Assembly: GCF_002160915.1 (NCBI RefSeq)
Contig: NZ_NFLM01000021.1
Location: 1 to 42,623 of the forward strand
Source: Faecalibacterium sp. An121
Lineage (GTDB): Bacteria > Bacillota > Clostridia > Oscillospirales > Ruminococcaceae
DNA length: 42,623 nt
Reading direction: 5' to 3'
In this document: positions 1 to 38,469 of the stretch, in pieces
Layout: the number at the start of each line of letters is the position of its first letter
How positions within the stretch are numbered: the stretch's first letter is position 1
Notes under the pieces: generated by a model
Database searches by the model: none
What the model was told of the DNA's origin: nothing
The model's input: the letters and a program-made list of their open reading frames with translations, nothing else
Made by a program: the position numbers and the translations under genes

Positions 1-125
1 TGTTCCTCAGCACGCAATCGCTTGCGTCCTGTGAATTACTTTTTTGGAATTTTAAGTGTTTCCAACACTTTAAAGGTTCCGTTACAAGTATTCGATATTG
101 TTCAATTTTCAAGGTCCTGTGTCGC
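1..125 (-). other. Leader of an rRNA operon (16S gene beyond left edge)
   Basis: Read on the minus strand this stretch has the look of a Firmicute rRNA leader. It contains CCTTGAAAATTGAACAATA, close to the CTTGAAAACTGAATA-type sequence found in rrn leaders and spacers, followed by a hairpin with arms AAGTGTT and AACACTT. No protein-coding signal is seen. It is preceded by two tandem strong promoters (143-275). The 16S gene itself is not in the window, so the assignment is inference from leader plus promoter architecture. Confidence 0.7.
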
Positions 126-153
126 GCTGTCTTTCGACCGGCGACCTGTTTAT

Positions 154-24556: not shown

Positions 24557-25597
24557 TCAAATCGTTTTCGCCTTAACCATGATATAACAGGCCGCATACC
24601 ATTTTTTCTTCATTGCAGTACATAAAATTCTTCTCTGCAGATATTCCTTTTTGAGATCAGCATCTTTCAGTGCTCTCTGCAGATGTTCATCGTCTATGAT
24701 CTGTTTAAATGCACTCCATGTATCACGTCTGCTCTGGTCGGATACTACGATCGACTTCAATGATGCAATCACGCTCGAGATATACGCTTCAAACACCGCA
24801 GATCGAATCGCATTCGAATAGCCAAGCTCCTTACATTTTGCAATCGACGCATCGTAAAAATATTTCACTTTTTCATATCGGTCATATCTATATGTGTGCG
24901 TCAGCGACTTGGGATTTTCGCAATAATAATAGAGCGCTTCCCGAATAAATGCAACATTTTTAACATATCTATACAGGATCATCAGAGAAAACCAGTCTTC
25001 TGATATGATGTCCCGCTCCGAAACCATTCTCCATCCAGTCTTTTTTATCAAGTCAAAAGAGAACAGACCGCCGCTCATACTCATAAAAAAGTTGGTTTTG
25101 CTTTTTGCAAGCATATTGGGGAGCACATAGGACAGGATCTCATCCCCTTCATAATAGCATTTGTCTGGATTTGGACAAACCTCTCCGCAAATCTTACCGG
25201 CTTGATCGACTTTAAAAAAGCCATACAGCACAATATCCACATTTTTTTCTTTTGCCGCAGCATAAGTCTTCTCTACCAGATCCAAAGCAATGTAGTCATC
25301 CGAATCCACAAAGCAAATGTATTCCCCTGACGCATGATCTATGCCGGTGTTTCTGGCATATCCCAGCCCTTCATTCTTTTTATGGACCACTTTGATCCTG
25401 GCATCCCTTTTTGCCCACGCATCGCACATTTCCGGGCAGCGGTCCGGGGAACCATCATCCACCAGAATGATTTCAAGGTTTGTATAGGTTTGATTAACAA
25501 CACTATTTATGCATCGATCCAGATATTTTTCCACATTATAGACCGGGATCACAACAGTGACAAGCGCCTTTTCTGTTTTATTCGTATCATTTTGCAT
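24557..25597 (-). CDS. Family 2 glycosyltransferase
   Basis: A GT-A fold glycosyltransferase of about 346 residues with VTVVIPVYNVEKYLDRC, the nucleotide-binding VDDGSPDRCPEMCD, GLGYARNTGID and the metal-binding DxD region ICFVDSDDYI. It adds a sugar to the lipid-linked repeat unit at the cytoplasmic membrane face. ATG at 25597 starts just before the domain; an upstream ATG at 25666, overlapping the sugar transferase gene by 11 bp, would add 23 residues and cannot be excluded. Middle gene of the riboswitch-controlled operon. Confidence 0.88.
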   Translation of the reverse strand: MQNDTNKTEKALVTVVIPVYNVEKYLDRCINSVVNQTYTNLEIILVDDGSPDRCPEMCDAWAKRDARIKVVHKKNEGLGYARNTGIDHASGEYICFVDSDDYIALDLVEKTYAAAKEKNVDIVLYGFFKVDQAGKICGEVCPNPDKCYYEGDEILSYVLPNMLAKSKTNFFMSMSGGLFSFDLIKKTGWRMVSERDIISEDWFSLMILYRYVKNVAFIREALYYYCENPKSLTHTYRYDRYEKVKYFYDASIAKCKELGYSNAIRSAVFEAYISSVIASLKSIVVSDQSRRDTWSAFKQIIDDEHLQRALKDADLKKEYLQRRILCTAMKKKWYAACYIMVKAKTI

Positions 25598-25655
25598 ATC
25601 TTCAACCTGTATTTCCAAAGCACCGAAATCATTTATAATTGAACAGCCACTCAGA

Positions 25656-26384
25656 TCATACCCCATACATTCCCAAAATGGTCCATATGGTTTGAAAAAT
25701 AAGCTTCCAATCCAGCCAGAAATTGCGCTCATTTATGTATTTCAGATCCAGCTCGATCCATTCATCGAAGCTCATTTCATTGCGGTTTGGCTGGACCTGC
25801 CAGTAACAGGTCAACCCCGGCGTCACATAAAGCCGCTGCTTCTGGTAGGGGGTATATTGCGCAACCTCCCGGGGCAGGGGCGGACGCGGGCCAACGATGC
25901 TCATTTCACCGCGCAAAATATTGATCAGCTGCGGCAATTCATCCAGCCCTGTTTTGCGGAGGAACTTACCCACGCGTGTGATTCGCGGGTCATCTTTGAT
26001 TTTAAAGACCGGACCATCCATCTCATTTTGCGATATAAATTCATTCAGTTTATCCTCTGCATGCGGTACCATCGTACGAAACTTGTAAAGCTTGAATATC
26101 TTTTCATCTCGCCCCACCCGATCCTGCACAAAAACCGGACTAGCACCGGGGCTGTCGATCCAGATGGCCAGCGCAATGAGCAGCATCACCGGCCAAAGGA
26201 CCAGTAACGCCAACAGGGAGAAAAAGACATCCTGCACCCGGCGCCCTGTCCAATAATGCCGGTCCCGGTACAGCAGCTGGTCCTGGTCAAACCAGTAAGT
26301 TGGGATCTCCTTCAAGCCGCTGACCGTCTCGAATTCGCCATATTCATCCGGCTCCTGCACGGCACTCTTCTCAGATGCACTCAT
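25656..26384 (-). CDS. Polyprenyl-phosphate sugar-1-phosphate transferase
   Basis: Initiating transferase that loads the first sugar phosphate onto undecaprenyl phosphate. The 242-residue protein has one transmembrane helix (about residues 52-74) and the catalytic domain of the WbaP/RfbP type: KLYKFRTM, DDPRITRVGKFLRKTGLDELPQ (split by one loop from the preceding segment) and MSIVGPRPPLP. It lacks the four extra N-terminal helices of full-length WbaP. AGGGGGTG lies before the ATG. First gene after the c-di-GMP riboswitch and terminator, so it should respond most directly to it. Confidence 0.92.
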   Translation of the reverse strand: MSASEKSAVQEPDEYGEFETVSGLKEIPTYWFDQDQLLYRDRHYWTGRRVQDVFFSLLALLVLWPVMLLIALAIWIDSPGASPVFVQDRVGRDEKIFKLYKFRTMVPHAEDKLNEFISQNEMDGPVFKIKDDPRITRVGKFLRKTGLDELPQLINILRGEMSIVGPRPPLPREVAQYTPYQKQRLYVTPGLTCYWQVQPNRNEMSFDEWIELDLKYINERNFWLDWKLIFQTIWTILGMYGV

Positions 26385-26420: not shown

Positions 26421-26464
26421 AAAAAAGGCTGCAATTATACAATTTACATTGAATAATTGCAGCC
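26421..26464 (-). terminator. Riboswitch expression-platform terminator
   Basis: Minus strand: GGCTGCAATTAT and ATAATTGCAGCC form a perfect 12-bp stem followed by T6. It lies between the aptamer and the sugar transferase ribosome-binding site. Its 5' arm overlaps bases that could close the aptamer P1 stem (GGTTCGGCT). Confidence 0.88.
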
Positions 26465-26560
26465 GAACCACCTTGTGCTGCGCTTTCGATCCGCGCACGT
26501 AAGGCTTCATGCTTTGCGCCCCTGCATTTCTGCAGGTTTGCCAAATGATTCACTTTTGCT
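26458..26560 (-). ncRNA. Cyclic-di-GMP-I (GEMM) riboswitch aptamer
   Basis: On the minus strand the leader contains the GEMM core: GGCAAACC (26535-26542), stem CCTGCA-GAAA-TGCAGG with the conserved GAAA tetraloop (26527-26530), then GGGGCGCAAAGC (26511-26522). A second irregular stem with GTGC/GCAC and CCTT/AAGG follows (26468-26505). The conserved G just before CAAACC is retained, which favours c-di-GMP over cGAMP. A possible P1, AGTGAATC with GGTTC(G)GCT, reaches into the terminator stem, suggesting that ligand binding prevents termination. Aptamer identity is clear; the ON direction is inferred. Confidence 0.87.
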
Positions 26561-32083: not shown

Positions 32084-33910
32084 TCAGCAAAAGGCCGAAG
32101 GAAAGATATTTTTAACCCCTCGGGTTCTTGATGGCAGCCTGGGTAGCTGCTCCGATGGCAGGGAGCCTAAAATTTGATTCGCAGCCACGTCCGTTTTCAC
32201 TTCACCAGGGTTTAAGAACTCCCTGATACCGTTCACCGACGGCACACAATTCCCCTTTTTGCCCTCCACCAGAAGGCCCGCCTGGGCATCGGTTCCGGGC
32301 CCCAAATGGAGGTACCACTCGAAGTGGGTCTCAGACACCGGCGTCACCCGGTAGACGATCTGATCCACCAGGTCCCGGCTGACCCCCTTCCCTTTCAGGT
32401 GGACCAGCTCTTCCAGGGCCTGCTGAATCCGGTCCAGGTCCATGGCCTCCCGGCACTCCGCCGCCTCGGCTTCTTTCTGTGCCGCTTCCAGGCGGCTCTT
32501 CTCGGCCTCCAGCTGGTCCCGCAGCTTCTGGTATTCCTCCTTCCCGATCTCCCCGTCCGCCCGCATGACGGTCAGGTTCCGCAGCCGGGTCTCGATCCGC
32601 TCCAGCTGAATCTTCCGCTCACTGTTCCCCTGCTGGTCCTTCCGGCTGGTCTCCTTGTAGTATTTTTTCAGCAGCTCCAGGGCGGTCTGGATGATCTGGT
32701 GCTTGTCCCCCAGCAGCTGCTCAAAGAGGGTGTCGGCCATCATCTCCAGCTTCCAGTCCCCATACATCCGAATCCCGCAGTAGCCCTCGCTGTCCAGGCC
32801 CATCTCCTCCCGCTTCTGTTTGGAGCCGTTGTTGATCCGGTTGTAGCACTGGTACCCGTAGGAAATGCTGCCGTCCTTCCGGACGTGCCACTTGTCCCGG
32901 CGGCAGGCATAGCCGCAGCTGCACCGCAGCTTGTTGACCCAGATGTCCTCCGAACTCCGGTTGCTGATGGTCACCTTGCCGTCCCGCAGGGCCACCGCTT
33001 TTCGCCGGTTGATTCGGATGCTCTGAGCCTTGTTCCAAATCTCTTTGGAGACAATGGCCGGGAAGTCCCCTTCCTGATATAAATAGGTGGAGGCATCCAG
33101 GTTCAGCACCCGGTGCTGGTCCAGATAGTTGTTGTTCCGGGATTTGTTGTAGCACTTGGTGCCGGTGTAGGTGGCGTTTTTCAGCACCCGCACTACGCTG
33201 GAGGCGCTCCACCGCACCAAGCCCATGGCGCTTTTCCGGTGCCGGGCGTTGAGCTCGTTGGCAATCTGCAAAGAGCCTCTCCCCTGCAAATAGAGGTCGA
33301 AGATCAGCCGCACCGTCTCGGCCTGCTCCTCGTTGATCTTGTAGGTGTCCCCGTCCCGGTCGTAGCCCAGAATGTTGCCGTTGCCGTACAGAACCCCCTT
33401 TTCCCGACTCACCTTCTGGCCCGCCCGCGCCCGCTCGGAGGTCTTGCGGCTCTCCTCCTGGGCCAGGGTGGCCATCAGGGAAAGGCGAAGTTCGCCGTCC
33501 CCGTCCATGGTCCAGATGTTGTCCTCGATGAAGTAGACTTCCACCCTGATCCCTTTCAGCTCCCGGGTGATGACCAGGGTATCCACCACGTTCCGGGCGA
33601 ACCGGCAGACCTCACGGGTCACGATCAGGTCGAACCTGCCCTGCCGGGCGTCATCGATCATCCGCAGAAAGGAGGGCCGCTTTTTGGCCTGGGTGCCGGT
33701 AATGCCCTCGTCTATGTACCGGCCCTGAATCTCCCAGTTGGGATGATACCGCGCCTGATCGTCGTACCACTGCATCTGGTTTTCCAGGGCAGCAATCTGC
33801 GCCTCATGCTCGGTGGATACCCGGCCATAGACGGCCACTTTCCGCTTCCGGTTCCGGTCCAGCTGGGTGTAGTCCGTCAGCTTAAAGCGATAGTTGTAAT
33901 CGTCCCGCAT
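32084..33910 (-). CDS. Large serine recombinase
   Basis: A 608-residue site-specific recombinase. The N-terminal resolvase catalytic domain has the nucleophile Ser in YGRVSTE (about residue 32) and conserved Arg residues in TREVCRFARN. The recombinase domain follows (about 185-310), then a zinc-ribbon region (LRCSCGYACRR ... YGYQCYNR) and a long coiled coil (about 440-510), as in TnpX/phiC31-type enzymes. It catalyses integration and excision through a Ser-DNA intermediate. A strong AAGGAGG precedes MM. It lies at one end of the element, 21 bp after the small ORF. Confidence 0.95.
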   Translation of the reverse strand: MRDDYNYRFKLTDYTQLDRNRKRKVAVYGRVSTEHEAQIAALENQMQWYDDQARYHPNWEIQGRYIDEGITGTQAKKRPSFLRMIDDARQGRFDLIVTREVCRFARNVVDTLVITRELKGIRVEVYFIEDNIWTMDGDGELRLSLMATLAQEESRKTSERARAGQKVSREKGVLYGNGNILGYDRDGDTYKINEEQAETVRLIFDLYLQGRGSLQIANELNARHRKSAMGLVRWSASSVVRVLKNATYTGTKCYNKSRNNNYLDQHRVLNLDASTYLYQEGDFPAIVSKEIWNKAQSIRINRRKAVALRDGKVTISNRSSEDIWVNKLRCSCGYACRRDKWHVRKDGSISYGYQCYNRINNGSKQKREEMGLDSEGYCGIRMYGDWKLEMMADTLFEQLLGDKHQIIQTALELLKKYYKETSRKDQQGNSERKIQLERIETRLRNLTVMRADGEIGKEEYQKLRDQLEAEKSRLEAAQKEAEAAECREAMDLDRIQQALEELVHLKGKGVSRDLVDQIVYRVTPVSETHFEWYLHLGPGTDAQAGLLVEGKKGNCVPSVNGIREFLNPGEVKTDVAANQILGSLPSEQLPRLPSRTRGVKNIFPSAFC

Positions 33911-33933
33911 CATAATGCCGCCCTCCTTATTTC

Positions 33934-34142: not shown

Positions 34143-35108
34143 TCATCCGGCGTTGGCTTCACGGATGGATTGTTCAAAATTTTTAATAAAATCTATGCCC
34201 TGTTCACTGATCCGGCGGATATTCTCCAGCCCCGAGAGACAGAGCGCCGGGTTGTTCTGCAAACAGGTGTTCCAACGGAAGATCATGTTGTCCAGGGCAT
34301 CTCCCAATTCATAGCAGATATCGTCTGCGTCGGCTTCCCCGGTGGGCTGGAGCATCTTTTCTGACACTTCCCGGATGGCTTGCAGGGTTTCTGCAACGCT
34401 GCGCTTACGTTTCGGTTTTTCCTGGGGCTTCTCTTGGGGCTTTTCTTTGTCTTTGTGCTTTTCCTCGGGCTTTTCGGGTTCTTTGGTCTGCCGGAGCTGC
34501 TGGATCAGAGCGGGCCTTTCCTCCGGCGGGGCTTTGGCGATGGCCGCCACAGCCTTCTCTGTGGGTTTGATGCTGCCGGTCAGGATTTCCTGTTTGATGC
34601 CGGGAACGGCCTCCTCAGCGGCATCTACGCCGTTGGCGAATTGCTCTGCACGGATAACAGTATTTCTGGCTACGCCATTCTCGGCTGCAATGCGTTCACA
34701 GGTTTTTTCTTTCAAGATCAAGTTACCATTTTGGTAACTTGATTTTGGTGCATTGTTTTTACGATCTCCGCCATATGCAATCTTCTCCGCCTTGTACTGC
34801 TGTCCCATCAGATACTTGAATTGCTGGGACGTTAGGTTCCGCCGCCCCAGCTGGTTTTTGCAGATCCAGGCGATGACTGCGTACCGATCGGGAAACTCCT
34901 TCTCATAGATAGTGAACTGAATCTCCGGGTGCTGCTGAAGGATGCGGTAGCGGTTGTGACCATCCACGATGATGCCGTCCCAGACGATCAGCGGGTTGAT
35001 AACCACCCCATCTGCCAGGATGTTTTCCTCCAGCTGTTTCAGTTCTTCCTCACGAAGCGGAGGAATCTTGCTCTCAAACTCCGGGTCAATGCGCAAATTC
35101 TGTAGCAT
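34143..35108 (-). CDS. ParB-like nuclease-domain protein of mobile element
   Basis: A 321-residue protein with an N-terminal ParB/Srx-like domain (PPLREEELKQLEENI, GVVINPLIVWDGIIVDGHNRYRI), a central helix-turn-helix-like region (CERIAAENGVARNTVIRAEQF) and a Lys/Glu/Pro-rich linker (KEPEKPEEKHKDKEKPQEK) before a C-terminal helical part. The start is the ATG at 35108 behind AGGAGG. The same frame stays open for 62 codons upstream into repeat copy A. It is encoded with a serine recombinase and probably acts as the element's regulator or DNA-organising protein, not as the chromosomal ParB. Confidence 0.85.
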   Translation of the reverse strand: MLQNLRIDPEFESKIPPLREEELKQLEENILADGVVINPLIVWDGIIVDGHNRYRILQQHPEIQFTIYEKEFPDRYAVIAWICKNQLGRRNLTSQQFKYLMGQQYKAEKIAYGGDRKNNAPKSSYQNGNLILKEKTCERIAAENGVARNTVIRAEQFANGVDAAEEAVPGIKQEILTGSIKPTEKAVAAIAKAPPEERPALIQQLRQTKEPEKPEEKHKDKEKPQEKPQEKPKRKRSVAETLQAIREVSEKMLQPTGEADADDICYELGDALDNMIFRWNTCLQNNPALCLSGLENIRRISEQGIDFIKNFEQSIREANAG

Positions 35109-35231
35109 CTGCTTTCGCCTCCTCTCTTTTATCGGGTGTGAATTCCATTTCAGTCGGACTTTAAGGCCCACTGCCCTGGAGCTTTCCATTCCGGCCAGTG
35201 GTTTGAAATTGGTTTTGCGGGTTCCTCCCCC

Positions 35232-35395
35232 ATTTGTCCTCGACACCCCGGGGAGGGTTGGGAACCTTCTGGCGGCGGATTTGCACCGCTCCATCGGCCT
35301 TTCAGCCGCCCCGCCTTCTTTGTGGCCGGGCCGCGAGTTACGGAAGTATCATTATCTGGAAGTACCAGGAGGTTGAGCTATTCAGTTTTCAAGGT
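35232..35395 (-). repeat. Leader repeat core, copy A (closest to parB-like gene)
   Basis: 164-bp core. On the minus strand it begins ACCTTGAAAACTGAATAG and contains a CTGG-tactt-CCAG hairpin, GGCT-GAAA-GGCC hairpin and CCCCGGGG palindrome. It is nearly identical to copies B-D; the GAAA-loop stem has one changed base that still pairs as G-U. The frame starting MERCKSAARRFPTLPG in this copy continues in frame into the ParB-like protein. Confidence 0.9.
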
Positions 35396-35729
35396 ACTGC
35401 GTTGGTCTCTGGTAAAAGCATACCAGAAGTTTTTCCTCTCCGGGAGTGACTGGTTGTCACGGTACCGGGCTTGTTTGTCACGGTTGGACGTTCAAGTCGG
35501 ATTCCTGTAAACAAGATATCACACTTATTCAGCAAGCGGGACTCTCTCGTAGATAGCCTTTGGTTGTCTTGGAGACAACCCTTGGAATTTTCTCTTTCTT
35601 CGGTCTGGAGAAAAGATCCTTACACTTACGAGCCATCGAAAAGGGCCCTTTCGCAACCTCGATTTTGGGATTTCACAAAACAATCACATTTCGTCGTGTT
35701 TTACTTTTTATGATCCTGGGTTCTTCTCT
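35396..35729 (-). repeat. Spacer between cores A and B
   Basis: 334 bp. The outer parts (35404-35450 and about 35570-35729) are conserved with the other spacers; the middle is a longer unique insertion with GTCAC/GTGAC motifs and one CTACGAG on the minus strand. No protein gene is supported. Confidence 0.75.
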
Positions 35730-35893
35730 ATTTGTCCTCGACGCCCCGGGGAGGGTTGGGAACCTTCTGGCGGCGGATTTGCACCGCTCCATCGGCCTTT
35801 CGGCCGCCCCGCCTTCTTTGTGGCCGGGCCGCGAGTTACGGAAGTGTCATTGTCTGGAAGTACCAGGAGGCTGAACTATTCGGTTTTCAAGGT
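35730..35893 (-). repeat. Leader repeat core, copy B
   Basis: 164 bp, nearly identical to copies A, C and D, with CACCTTGAAAACCGAATAG at its minus-strand 5' end and GGCC-GAAA-GGCC hairpin inside. It encodes a possible 39-codon peptide beginning MERCKSAARRFPTLPG. Confidence 0.9.
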
Positions 35894-36169
35894 GCCGTGT
35901 GGTCTCTGGCAAAAGCATACCAGAAGGTTTTCCTCTTTGGGAGTGACTCGTAGTACCCCCTAAGAGCCCTTAAGGGGGTACTCGTAGTTCCCCCTGGGGC
36001 CCGTTTATCTTGGAGATACCCCTTGTAATTTCTCTTTCTCCTGTCCGGAGAAAAGATCCCTACACTTACGAGCCATCGAGAAGGGCCCTTTCGCAACCTC
36101 GATTTTAGGATTTCACAAAGCAATCACACTTCACCATGTTTTGCCTCTTATGATCTTAGGTTCTCCCCT
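35894..36169 (-). repeat. Spacer between cores B and C
   Basis: 276 bp. Minus strand carries two CTACGAG motifs, each between a G block and a C block (GGGGGAACTACGAGTACCCCC and a related second one), so alternative hairpins can form. Outer parts match the other spacers. Confidence 0.75.
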
Positions 36170-36333
36170 ATTTGTCCTCGACGCCCCGGGGAGGGTTGGG
36201 AACCTTCTGGCGGCGGACTTGCACCGCTCCATCGGCCTTTCGGCCGCCCCGCCTTCTTTGTGGCCGGGCCGCGAGTTACGGAAGTACCATTGTCTGGGAG
36301 TACCAGGAGGCTGAACTATTCGGTTTTCAAGGT
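36170..36333 (-). repeat. Leader repeat core, copy C
   Basis: 164 bp, nearly identical to copies A, B and D. It encodes a possible 33-codon peptide with the same MERCKSAARRFPTLPG N-terminus and a diverged end. Confidence 0.9.
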
Positions 36334-36600
36334 GCTGCGATGGTCTTTGGCAAAAGCATACCAGAAGGTTTTCCTCTTTGGGAGTGCCTCGTAGTACCCC
36401 TTAGGGGGATCTCGTAGACCCCCTGGGAGCCGTTTATCTTTGGAGACACCTCTTGGAATTTTCTCTTTCTTCGGTCTGGAGAAAAGATCCCTACACTTAC
36501 GAGCCATCGAGAAGGGCCTTTTTATAGCATCAATTTTAAGATTTCACGAAACAATCACATTTCGCCACGTTTTGCCTCTTATGATCCTGGGGTCTCCCCC
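36334..36600 (-). repeat. Spacer between cores C and D
   Basis: 267 bp. It contains two CTACGAG hairpins (GGGGGTCTACGAGATCCCCC and GGGGTACTACGAGG) and the conserved outer segments. A 63-codon frame here is not preserved in the other spacers. Confidence 0.75.
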
Positions 36601-36763
36601 ATTTGTCCTCGACGCCCCGGGGAGGGTTAGGAACCTTCTGGCGGCGGATTTGCACCGCTCCATCGGCCTTTCGGCCGCCCCGCCTTCTTCATGGCCGGGC
36701 CGCGAGTTACGGAAGTATCATTGTCTGGAAGTACCAGGAGGCTGCTTATTCACCTTTCAAGGT
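36601..36763 (-). repeat. Leader repeat core, copy D (promoter-distal from parB)
   Basis: 163 bp; the most diverged at its minus-strand 5' end (ACCTTGAAAGGTGAATAAG). The GAAA hairpin and the rest are conserved. A possible weak minus-strand -10 (TATAAT) lies upstream near 36820. Confidence 0.88.
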
Positions 36764-37009
36764 CCACCAGCTTCGGGCTTGTCCTCCCTTTTTGTGGGAG
36801 GCTCTTGCTGTGATAAAATTATACATTAAAACGATTCTTTTGGGGAGTAACCAGCTGTACCCATTTTCATCCAATTTGGGTACTCTTAGTACACATTTCT
36901 GTGAAAGTGCCCATTACAATGATAACTTAGGTTCCTCTTTGACGGGAGTAACTATCTGTCACAGTTTCCTGTGACGGGTTGTCACACCTTCCAAGTCTTT
37001 CATTTTTCA
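36764..37009. other. Non-coding region upstream of the repeat array
   Basis: No gene seen. It holds CCTCCC/GGGAGG (36783-36801), GTCAC/GTGAC palindromes (36958-36985) and short blocks of the form GGGAGTAAC-n-GTACCC that resemble the CTACGAG hairpins of the spacers. A minus-strand TATAAT near 36820 could start transcription through the array. Confidence 0.5.
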
Positions 37010-37103: not shown

Positions 37104-37769
37104 TTATCCTTCTCTCTGATCTACAATGTCCAGAGAATCTCTGCCTACCCGGCAGAGCAAAAAGAGAACCTTCACCCCAACCGCCTTTGCCTGTGCCAGA
37201 ACCTCACCGAAAGCCGGGTGCGTGTCCACATTGGGCCGCACCTCGGTGATTCCTTCCATCTGGATCACAAAGGCCACCCCGCAGCAGACCCCGGCCTGCT
37301 GAGCCCGGGTCAGTTCCTGCAGGTGCTTGACGCCCCGCTCGGTGGGGGCATCCGGGAAGTAGCCGATCCCGTTCACTTCCAGGGTGCAGCCCTTCACCTC
37401 CAGCAGATAAAGCTGGCCCGCCTTTTCCATAGCGAAATCAATCCGGGACTTTCCATAGGAGAACTCGGGGTGAATCGCATCGAAGTCCTTGGTTTCCAGC
37501 CACTCCTTCACCACCTTGTTGGGAGCCTGGCTGTCAATGTTGACCCAGCCCAGGCCTTCCTTCCGGACTGCTACCAGGTCATATTTTGTCTTGCGGGCAG
37601 GGTTATCCGACACTTCCAGTCGGACATCCGCCCCTGGCAGCAGCAATTCTTTGCAGCGGCCAGTGTTTTTGACATGGACGGTCTCCTCCCTGCCCTCCAG
37701 CAGCACCTTGGCGATGAAACGGTTGGGGCGGGAGAGAAAGGTGGCATCCAGGATGGTTTTGTATTGCAT
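37104..37769 (-). CDS. sfsA: SfsA family protein
   Basis: A 221-residue SfsA (sugar fermentation stimulation) protein. Family segments are visible: LLEGREETVHVKNTGRCKELLLPG, FAMEKAGQLYLLEVKGCTLE and YFPDAPTERGVKHLQEL (each read in parts). Family members are thought to be nucleic-acid-binding or nuclease-like proteins; the exact role is unsettled. ATG at 37769 starts directly at the domain with AAAGGAACC upstream. It lies 13 bp after the peptidase-E-like gene and is co-transcribed with it. Confidence 0.93.
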   Translation of the reverse strand: MQYKTILDATFLSRPNRFIAKVLLEGREETVHVKNTGRCKELLLPGADVRLEVSDNPARKTKYDLVAVRKEGLGWVNIDSQAPNKVVKEWLETKDFDAIHPEFSYGKSRIDFAMEKAGQLYLLEVKGCTLEVNGIGYFPDAPTERGVKHLQELTRAQQAGVCCGVAFVIQMEGITEVRPNVDTHPAFGEVLAQAKAVGVKVLFLLCRVGRDSLDIVDQREG

Positions 37770-37782
37770 AGAAGGTTCCTTT

Positions 37783-38469
37783 TCATTCAATAGTCTCAAG
37801 CTGAGGGGTGAACACATTTACCTCCCCCAGCAGCCTCACTTTTGATCCGTCAATAACGATGGCTGCGCGGTCTGTAACCATCGCATAGACAGTTTTCCTG
37901 CGTTCCTTCAGAACACGCTGGATCGCCTCATTTTGGGCATCGCTGCCCTCATAATGCACTTCCAAATAAAAATCTTTCAGAATCGGAAGTCCTTTGAAAT
38001 AACAGAATTCCGGGTAATCCTGATCTGGGGACAAATGATACTCCTCTAACTGAATGAGTGCACCGGCACTGTATCCCAGCACAACTCCCTGGAACTCAAG
38101 TAGCGTGCTTCTCAAATTGAACTCGTCGATCCGCTCCATCATCCGGTCCGGCAGGCCTCCCGGCAGATAAAGAATGTCCGCGCCACGAATGAGTTCTGCC
38201 GCCTTGGATTTTGAATCTGTATAATAATTGATCCACTTAATATGGTCCTCTGGAATCCCGTATCGTAAGAACGGGGACACCATATTCTGATAATAAAGCC
38301 CGTCTCTTTTTCTATAAAGCGCATTCCAGTCTGCAAGGCAGCTGACATCCCTGTCCCGATAGGAAAAAGCCAGAACAGCCACTTTGTCCTCTGGATGGAT
38401 GTAGCGCTTGAGCTGTTCATAGAGAAAATCGGCGGAAAAATCCAGTGTATCCAATAAAATATTGATCAT
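37783..38469 (-). CDS. Peptidase E-like (S51 family) protein
   Basis: A 228-residue class I glutamine-amidotransferase-like hydrolase. The nucleophile elbow GYSAGA (Ser134) follows LQ-type strand EFQGVVLGY, and DILYLPGGLPDRM matches the S51 dipeptidase E/cyanophycinase fold. It probably cleaves Asp-containing dipeptides or a related bond; the substrate is not certain. GGTGGAGG precedes the ATG at 38469. Upstream partner of sfsA and divergent from the McrBC operon. Confidence 0.87.
   Translation of the reverse strand: MINILLDTLDFSADFLYEQLKRYIHPEDKVAVLAFSYRDRDVSCLADWNALYRKRDGLYYQNMVSPFLRYGIPEDHIKWINYYTDSKSKAAELIRGADILYLPGGLPDRMMERIDEFNLRSTLLEFQGVVLGYSAGALIQLEEYHLSPDQDYPEFCYFKGLPILKDFYLEVHYEGSDAQNEAIQRVLKERRKTVYAMVTDRAAIVIDGSKVRLLGEVNVFTPQLETIE

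Follow-up and report, generated by a model that had tools for sequence, protein, structure and literature searches.

Four tandem boxA-led pemK RNAs in Faecalibacterium probably form an amplified array related to the canT antiterminator of Tn916

Why does a stretch of about 1.65 kb in a Faecalibacterium genome carry the same short sequence four times, directly ahead of a ParB-like gene and a serine recombinase gene? The locus lies in the window, by which we mean the whole 42,623-nt stretch of Faecalibacterium sp. An121 that was analysed. The original prediction, made from the letters alone, had described four near-identical cores in units of 431-498 bp, placed on the minus strand and lacking a common long ORF, and had suggested a cis-acting element that duplicated in place. 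The geometry was borne out: four direct repeats lie in register at 35.2-36.8 kb with spacings of 498, 440 and 431 bp, and their minus-strand cores of 163-164 nt each agree at 152-160 of 163-164 positions across the six pairs. For the 5' spacers the agreement is 202-224 of 265-276 aligned positions between copies A and B, A and C, and B and C, and only 56-67 positions could be aligned with copy D. Pairwise agreement is thus higher for the cores than for the spacers wherever the pairs are comparable. No minus-strand ORF of 80 aa lies within the array and, as predicted, the cores share no long ORF; a coding explanation was rejected, the conservation of the cores being accounted for by a known RNA family.

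All four cores contain a full-length match to Rfam pemK RNA (RF02913) on the minus strand, scoring 57.6-68.2 bits against a cut-off of 34.8, which upholds the predicted strand. Read as RNA, each core starts at a boxA-like 16-mer whose 5' end lies 38-39 nt before that of the pemK RNA (Table 1).

Table 1. Positions of the array copies, of the structural elements assigned in copy A and of neighbouring features in the window
Feature	Position	Strand	Details
sfsA, flanking gene	37104-37817	-	common to the single-copy F. gallinarum site
TATAAT, -10-like element	36818-36823	-	5' of copy D boxA; without matching -35; not picked up by simple scan
Copy D, most 5' on transcript	36588-36762	-	boxA 36747-36762 (CCTTGAAAGGTGAATA); pemK RNA 36660-36724, 60.2 bits
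Copy C	36157-36332	-	boxA 36317-36332 (CCTTGAAAACCGAATA); pemK RNA 36229-36293, 59.0 bits
Copy B	35717-35892	-	boxA 35877-35892 (CCTTGAAAACCGAATA); pemK RNA 35789-35853, 57.6 bits
Copy A, adjoins ParB-like gene	35219-35394	-	boxA 35379-35394 (CCTTGAAAACTGAATA); pemK RNA 35291-35355, 68.2 bits
Helix P1, 5' strand, copy A	35365-35372	-	CCTCCTGG; soon after boxA
Helix P1, partner strand, copy A	35265-35272	-	CCAGAAGG; one C-A mismatch
Extra hairpin, copy A	35275-35289	-	3' of Rfam pemK model; GCGG-loop-CCGC; two-sided changes in relatives
ParB-like protein, first gene past array	34143-35108	-	321 aa; name by eye
Large serine recombinase	32084-33913	-	609 aa; Pfam Resolvase + Recombinase

A simple promoter scan gave nothing on the sense strand of the array. 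Downstream, the predicted ParB-like/serine recombinase operon held for its second gene, in which Pfam recognised both recombinase domains. The first gene gave no Pfam or NCBIfam match at 1e-3, so its ParB-like name remains a reading of the sequence by eye. Relatives of this protein were found in 15 of 245 genomes, with a pemK match at 3 of the 20 such loci scanned; pemK RNA is not tied to parB. Two further features of the region were noted. Copies B and C have operator-like repeats (GTACTACGAG.CACTCCC), possibly regulator sites, on the 5' side of boxA, at about 35893-35970 in B and 36333-36410 in C; they stand before an inverted repeat, and related forms precede copies A and D. Elsewhere in the window, a c-di-GMP-I riboswitch (26455-26552, minus strand, 53.1 bits) precedes minus-strand genes, one of which encodes a family 2 glycosyltransferase (24557-25732).

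The boxA of rRNA operons is the NusB-S10 site, and the array boxA differs at only 2-3 letters of 16 from the rRNA-leader 16-mer of this genome, CCTTGAAAATTGAACA. At two contig ends (L014 and L015) this 16-mer comes after a TTGACA/TAAAAT promoter, and three more copies stand at contig starts. Since RF00177 detected no 16S in the assembly, the rRNA-leader label rests on the promoter, the place and the likeness to other genomes. Across 10 other genomes, a boxA-like element lies 100-189 nt before 16S in 20 of 20 loci examined (24 were listed), differing from the consensus at 2-4 positions; this count has no control. Within the genome of the window, all seven pemK RNAs have a boxA-like element on their 5' side with at most 2 mismatches to the search pattern, and an eighth boxA (C12) precedes an apparent pemK RNA that carries an insertion and gives no Rfam match above the cut-off.

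We counted boxA in two surveys. The first, of leaders from the order and phylum, drew on 108 places, six of which were unused (the five weakest and G122:C31), and on 27 of the 47 rows of another scan, 129 in total; four leaders were incomplete, of which two were recovered and two lost (L178 and L185), and three with less than 100 nt upstream were left out, leaving 124 (121 distinct). With up to 3 mismatches allowed in the 16 letters and a search range of 300 nt on the 5' side of pemK, boxA was present in 74/124 leaders, compared with 0/124 downstream, 1/124 on the antisense strand and 0/124 for the reversed pattern; 300 permuted patterns gave a mean of 0.11% and a maximum of 3.2%. The second survey, gathered by a pemK pattern and with 4 short and 8 duplicate leaders removed, gave 91/113 among the matches listed, with controls on the same footing of 0/113 (reversed), 1/113 (antisense) and 0/107 (downstream). 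It is not fully independent, because some genomes are shared with the first (L264, L288 and L250 correspond to G098, G041 and G019). The short core YTTGAMAA occurred upstream in 101/123 leaders, on the antisense strand in 13/123 and downstream in 7/124; permuted 8-mers averaged 2.5%, the highest of 300 reaching 39%. The exact form is absent from 22/123 leaders, copy D among them, and by eye some of these lack boxA.

Several boxA-led leaders depart from the short type of the window. Long-type leaders, such as L171 and L145, have boxA and pemK separated by a conserved CGCCATGAC..GAGCGA-like domain, which is absent from the short type. One further leader, in the genome of the window, L018 (G000:C62:15211-15226, minus strand), has no pemK match above the cut-off and carries a CGCCAGGAC..GAGCGA segment as in the long-type leaders; it is perhaps a pemK-less relative. 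The sequence CTTTCAAAACTGAATA, which is boxA-like with one core difference, occurs at L019 (G000:C1:222951) and L026 (G000:C25:12289), whose surroundings are alike and by eye consist of mobilisation genes.

Beyond boxA, the RNA has a larger fold than its Rfam entry. The 61-nt model of RF02913 covers only the inner part; boxA, an extra 3' hairpin and a long-range helix, P1, in which a stretch soon after boxA pairs with one just past that hairpin, all lie outside it. Alignment of 28 of 33 Faecalibacterium-type leaders (left out were L142 and L289, which are interrupted, L217, whose boxA is a chance match, and the near-identical L294 and L326) showed the combined structure of Rfam core, P1 and 3' hairpin to be paired in 96.8% of cells, against 91.4% in shuffles and at most 60.1% when the structure was slid along the alignment. 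The covariation that the original prediction had proposed to look for was present: 8 pairs and 48 cells had changed on both sides, compared with 4.3 and 15.9 in shuffles. The count of further pair types did not exceed shuffles (13 versus 14.5). The Rfam core helices were fully paired, two of them holding a pair with two-sided changes, and RNAalifold recovered most of P1 unaided.

P1 also covaries across the wider family. Of the 124 leaders, 53 had a boxA with at most 4 mismatches that was followed by a recognisable motif. In the 43 non-redundant ones among these, the mean helix score was 20.0, whereas 100 shuffles in which 3' halves were exchanged gave 12.36 (sd 0.37, maximum 13.37). The best unbroken helix in the three window rows was another helix; P1 was not picked there because of its mismatch. 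Extra covarying pairs in pemK RNA had been noted earlier, in the Rfam 15 paper (three more pairs) and in a CaCoFold paper, and the overlap of P1 with those pairs is undetermined. The presence of boxA 5' of pemK across the family, with a covarying long-range helix that starts just after it, looks new.

Single-sequence folding of copy A was not unusually stable (z -0.90), and so not significant as evidence. A hairpin before boxA had a mean z of -1.28 versus -0.64 for a control stretch (83 leaders), an excess too weak to be relied upon. A second 3' helix, visible by eye, shifts register in the alignment and was not counted. RNAalifold additionally paired bases 1-5 of boxA with a CGAGG conserved on the 3' side (alignment columns 1-5 with 158-162; window 35390-35394 with 35238-35242 in copy A); such a predicted pairing could hide boxA, but it shows no two-sided pair change.

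Of 197 genomes of the order surveyed, 65 have the RNA, that of the window among them. Downstream ORFs were called mechanically, and Pfam assignments were tallied for 64 of 67 large ones and 93 of 104 small ones. Among the large ORFs, serine recombinases (Resolvase, 34/64) and tyrosine integrases (Phage_integrase, 17/64) prevail, and the small ones include PemK toxins (31/93), ParA-type proteins (12/93) and HTH_17 proteins (12/93); pemK RNA therefore often heads modules for the excision, integration and maintenance of mobile elements. Earlier work, in the text accessible to us, lists it among RNAs near defence genes (PMC11061315), and the open-licence literature yielded no mechanism for it. A phage or plasmid origin of the window type was not adopted: the query matched five unannotated gut phage records over 59-99% of its length, and no plasmid match was found.

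The prominence of recombinases among the large downstream genes would fit an RNA that acts in recombination rather than transcription, as a guide or scaffold for the recombinase. The same RNA, however, precedes unrelated recombinase classes as well as PemK toxins and ParA-type proteins, and Tn916 mutants of canT, the relative discussed below, excise normally in the accessible text of the published work (PMC11658703), which leaves this reading hardly tenable. The variety of downstream genes, together with the Rfam class Cis-reg, could mark a classical cis-regulator, that is, a riboswitch or protein-binding leader controlling the next gene through an attenuator or a hidden ribosome site. Yet three of the four array copies precede another copy and not a gene. 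No terminator-like site lies on the sense strand of the array, where all 11 sites are on the plus strand, and across the survey leaders the sense strand carries such sites at chance level (3/124, shuffled expectation 2.6; antisense 12/124), so that an attenuator built on an intrinsic terminator was rejected. Moreover, the Tn916 relative is reported, in the part of the study available, to read through foreign terminators without other Tn916 genes. We consider classical cis-regulation improbable.

What the RNA may do instead is indicated by Tn916. The Tn916 excisionase family PF09035 gave 9 hits in 7 of 249 genomes, and a pemK RNA lies directly 5' of the Tn916-type xis in four of the nine, the other five having no pemK match. 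One of these loci, L370, encodes an Xis whose 67 residues all match those of the solved Tn916 excisionase, 1y6u. Of 16 plasmid records that match the L370 leader, 10 do so without a difference over 460 nt; in one of them the leader is flanked by a helix-turn-helix gene and an excisionase-integrase pair and lies downstream of tet(M). Counted from the orf8 stop, L370 has boxA at +124..139, the pemK start at exactly +283 and xis at +461; in the close variant L369 the pemK start is at +282. As a separate observation, both loci carry a partial SQ2397 match (RF03532), below the family cut-off, 5' of the Tn916-type orf8/canT region.

This interval is occupied by canT. According to the accessible text of Wirachman and Grossman (2024, PMC11658703), canT lies between orf8 and xis of Tn916 and is a cis-acting, orientation-specific, processive antiterminator, most likely an RNA, that acts on intrinsic, foreign terminators in the absence of any other Tn916 gene. 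The same text places the inactivating change canT(S3) from nt 283 after the orf8 stop and an inactive 162-bp deletion at nt 229-390; in a 452-bp reporter both reduced readthrough to below 5% of wild type, and a 400-bp fragment was active, but S3 had little or no effect there. Since pemK starts at +283 in L370, S3 alters nucleotides 1-3 of the pemK RNA, and the deletion takes out the pemK core but spares boxA. It follows that boxA alone is insufficient; whether canT needs it is unknown. A text search of the canT paper found neither boxA nor Rfam. That canT, judged by these coordinates, contains a boxA and a pemK RNA looks new.

The window RNA resembles canT in its arrangement: in both, boxA is followed by P1 and pemK RNA, and the whole precedes an excision or recombination module, albeit with one P1 mismatch in the window copies. 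It differs in that canT is a single copy with 159 nt between the boxA and pemK 5' ends, whereas the window has four copies at 38-39 nt, followed by a ParB-like gene and a serine recombinase. Given this coincidence, the array is most likely a tandemly amplified processive antiterminator of the canT type, and we hold with good confidence that the four cores are tandem copies of a boxA-led pemK RNA of the same kind, although activity of the window copies is inferred. The RNA reading of the predicted cis-acting element thereby gains support from three sides: a known RNA family, two-sided pair changes and a Tn916 relative that is published to act in cis and in one orientation.

By this antitermination model, which we infer, the boxA of each transcribed leader would recruit the host Nus factors used on rRNA (NusB-S10; there are no binding data), and the RNA after it, closed by P1 and holding the pemK core, would fold and render the polymerase resistant to terminators. 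The ParB-like and recombinase genes would thereby be transcribed through terminators and, if the element circularises, transcription may also run across the joined ends, an inference from Tn916. The need for antitermination is not obvious here, because the downstream genes in the window span only about 3 kb.

It remains conceivable that boxA and pemK chiefly shield a long untranslated leader from Rho, or aid its folding, with any effect on intrinsic terminators being secondary. For CRISPR arrays and rRNA, accessible texts describe boxA roles of just this kind, protection of long untranslated RNA from Rho or help with folding, and one passage holds that Nus factors serve rRNA mainly through its folding, because rRNA resists Rho by itself. 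The boxA is common to rRNA leaders, and the array, with no internal 80-aa minus-strand ORF in its 1.65 kb, has a boxA every 431-498 nt. The published canT work, as far as its text was accessible, nevertheless has canT acting on intrinsic terminators, and deletion of pemK with boxA kept abolishes its activity (PMC11658703); protection from Rho or help with folding as the principal role is therefore rather unlikely in our estimation. Unlike an rRNA operon, the window has pemK RNA and mobile-element genes after boxA and no rRNA, and there are no data on factor binding.

Comparison with other known systems places the antiterminator reading in context. The dinG RNA (RF03082) shares a AAUGAUACUUC..GCGGCCCG core with the window RNA, and all four dinG RNA hits that we found have YTTGAMAA on their 5' side, two of them being nearly one leader. 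Three window copies scored 23.5-25.5 bits with the dinG model, below its cut-off of 46.9, and the fourth was not among the matches listed, so the copies cannot be called dinG RNAs. A 7.1-kb stretch of pLS20, which we take to be the start of its conjugation operon, contained neither a pemK RNA nor a boxA at up to 3 mismatches; YTTGAMAA occurs there twice, within an annotated coding stretch. As far as this stretch goes, the conAn system of pLS20 found no support as a relative of the array. Together with the put and EAR RNAs, conAn is described in partly accessible sources as promoter-proximal, RNA-based processive antitermination, for which conAn additionally requires a protein. A boxA before toxin genes had been reported earlier in gamma-proteobacteria, in the available text within 50 bp of the start codon (PMC5725501); here, by contrast, the first mechanically called ORF begins a median of 146.5 nt after the end of pemK (108 leaders).

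Finally, relatives of the locus bear on how the array arose. At the same sfsA-flanked site F. gallinarum JCM 17207 has a single leader, and similarity jumps from window position 36857 to 35453; no recombinase relative was found in about 3.3 kb after the ParB-like gene of that site. Another contig of F. gallinarum, 4.6 kb long, holds two leaders 705 bp apart, followed by a ParB-like gene and a recombinase that are 59% and 93% identical, respectively, to those of the window. The loci (L276 and L302) belong to the same genome, G637, and more than two copies are possible at the two-leader locus because the contig ends near the first copy. Copies less than 1 kb apart were seen only in the window and on this contig among the 108 + 47 + 76 places of three scans. 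These states speak for the proposed duplication in place, by which the array would have grown from a single leader. Similarity to the two-copy locus ends near the recombinase 3' end (blastn to window position 32122, tblastn to residue 608 of 609), which suggests outward transcription at an element edge, as in Tn916; this remains tentative, as only about 0.4 kb of the relative lies beyond and the inference is drawn from alignment ends.

The varying copy number, with one leader at the sfsA site and two at a second locus of F. gallinarum, against four here, also agrees with the extra copies being neutral by-products of tandem duplication without function beyond that of one copy, a reading compatible with canT-type antitermination. 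The better conservation of the cores than of the spacers in comparable pairs argues against it, as does the retention of boxA and a full pemK match in four of four copies, although recent duplication or gene conversion could also contribute to this. We regard neutrality as a real possibility that falls somewhat short of an even chance; any benefit or purpose of four copies is inferred.

Taken together, the match between pemK and canT gives an orphan RNA family a likely and testable job as an antiterminator. If this is true, mobile elements of gut Clostridia, conjugative ones included, would widely escape termination by means of an RNA led by an rRNA-type boxA, which would explain why pemK RNA stands before excision and recombinase genes. 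More broadly, pemK RNA, and probably dinG RNA too, may make up a single large superfamily, so far unrecognised, of antiterminators in mobile elements, which use boxA to borrow the rRNA machinery of the host; in this lineage the antiterminator would have become an array of variable copy number, so that dose or robustness could evolve; on present evidence we find this proposal evenly poised. The natural one-, two- and four-copy states offer material for asking whether the number of antiterminators matters.
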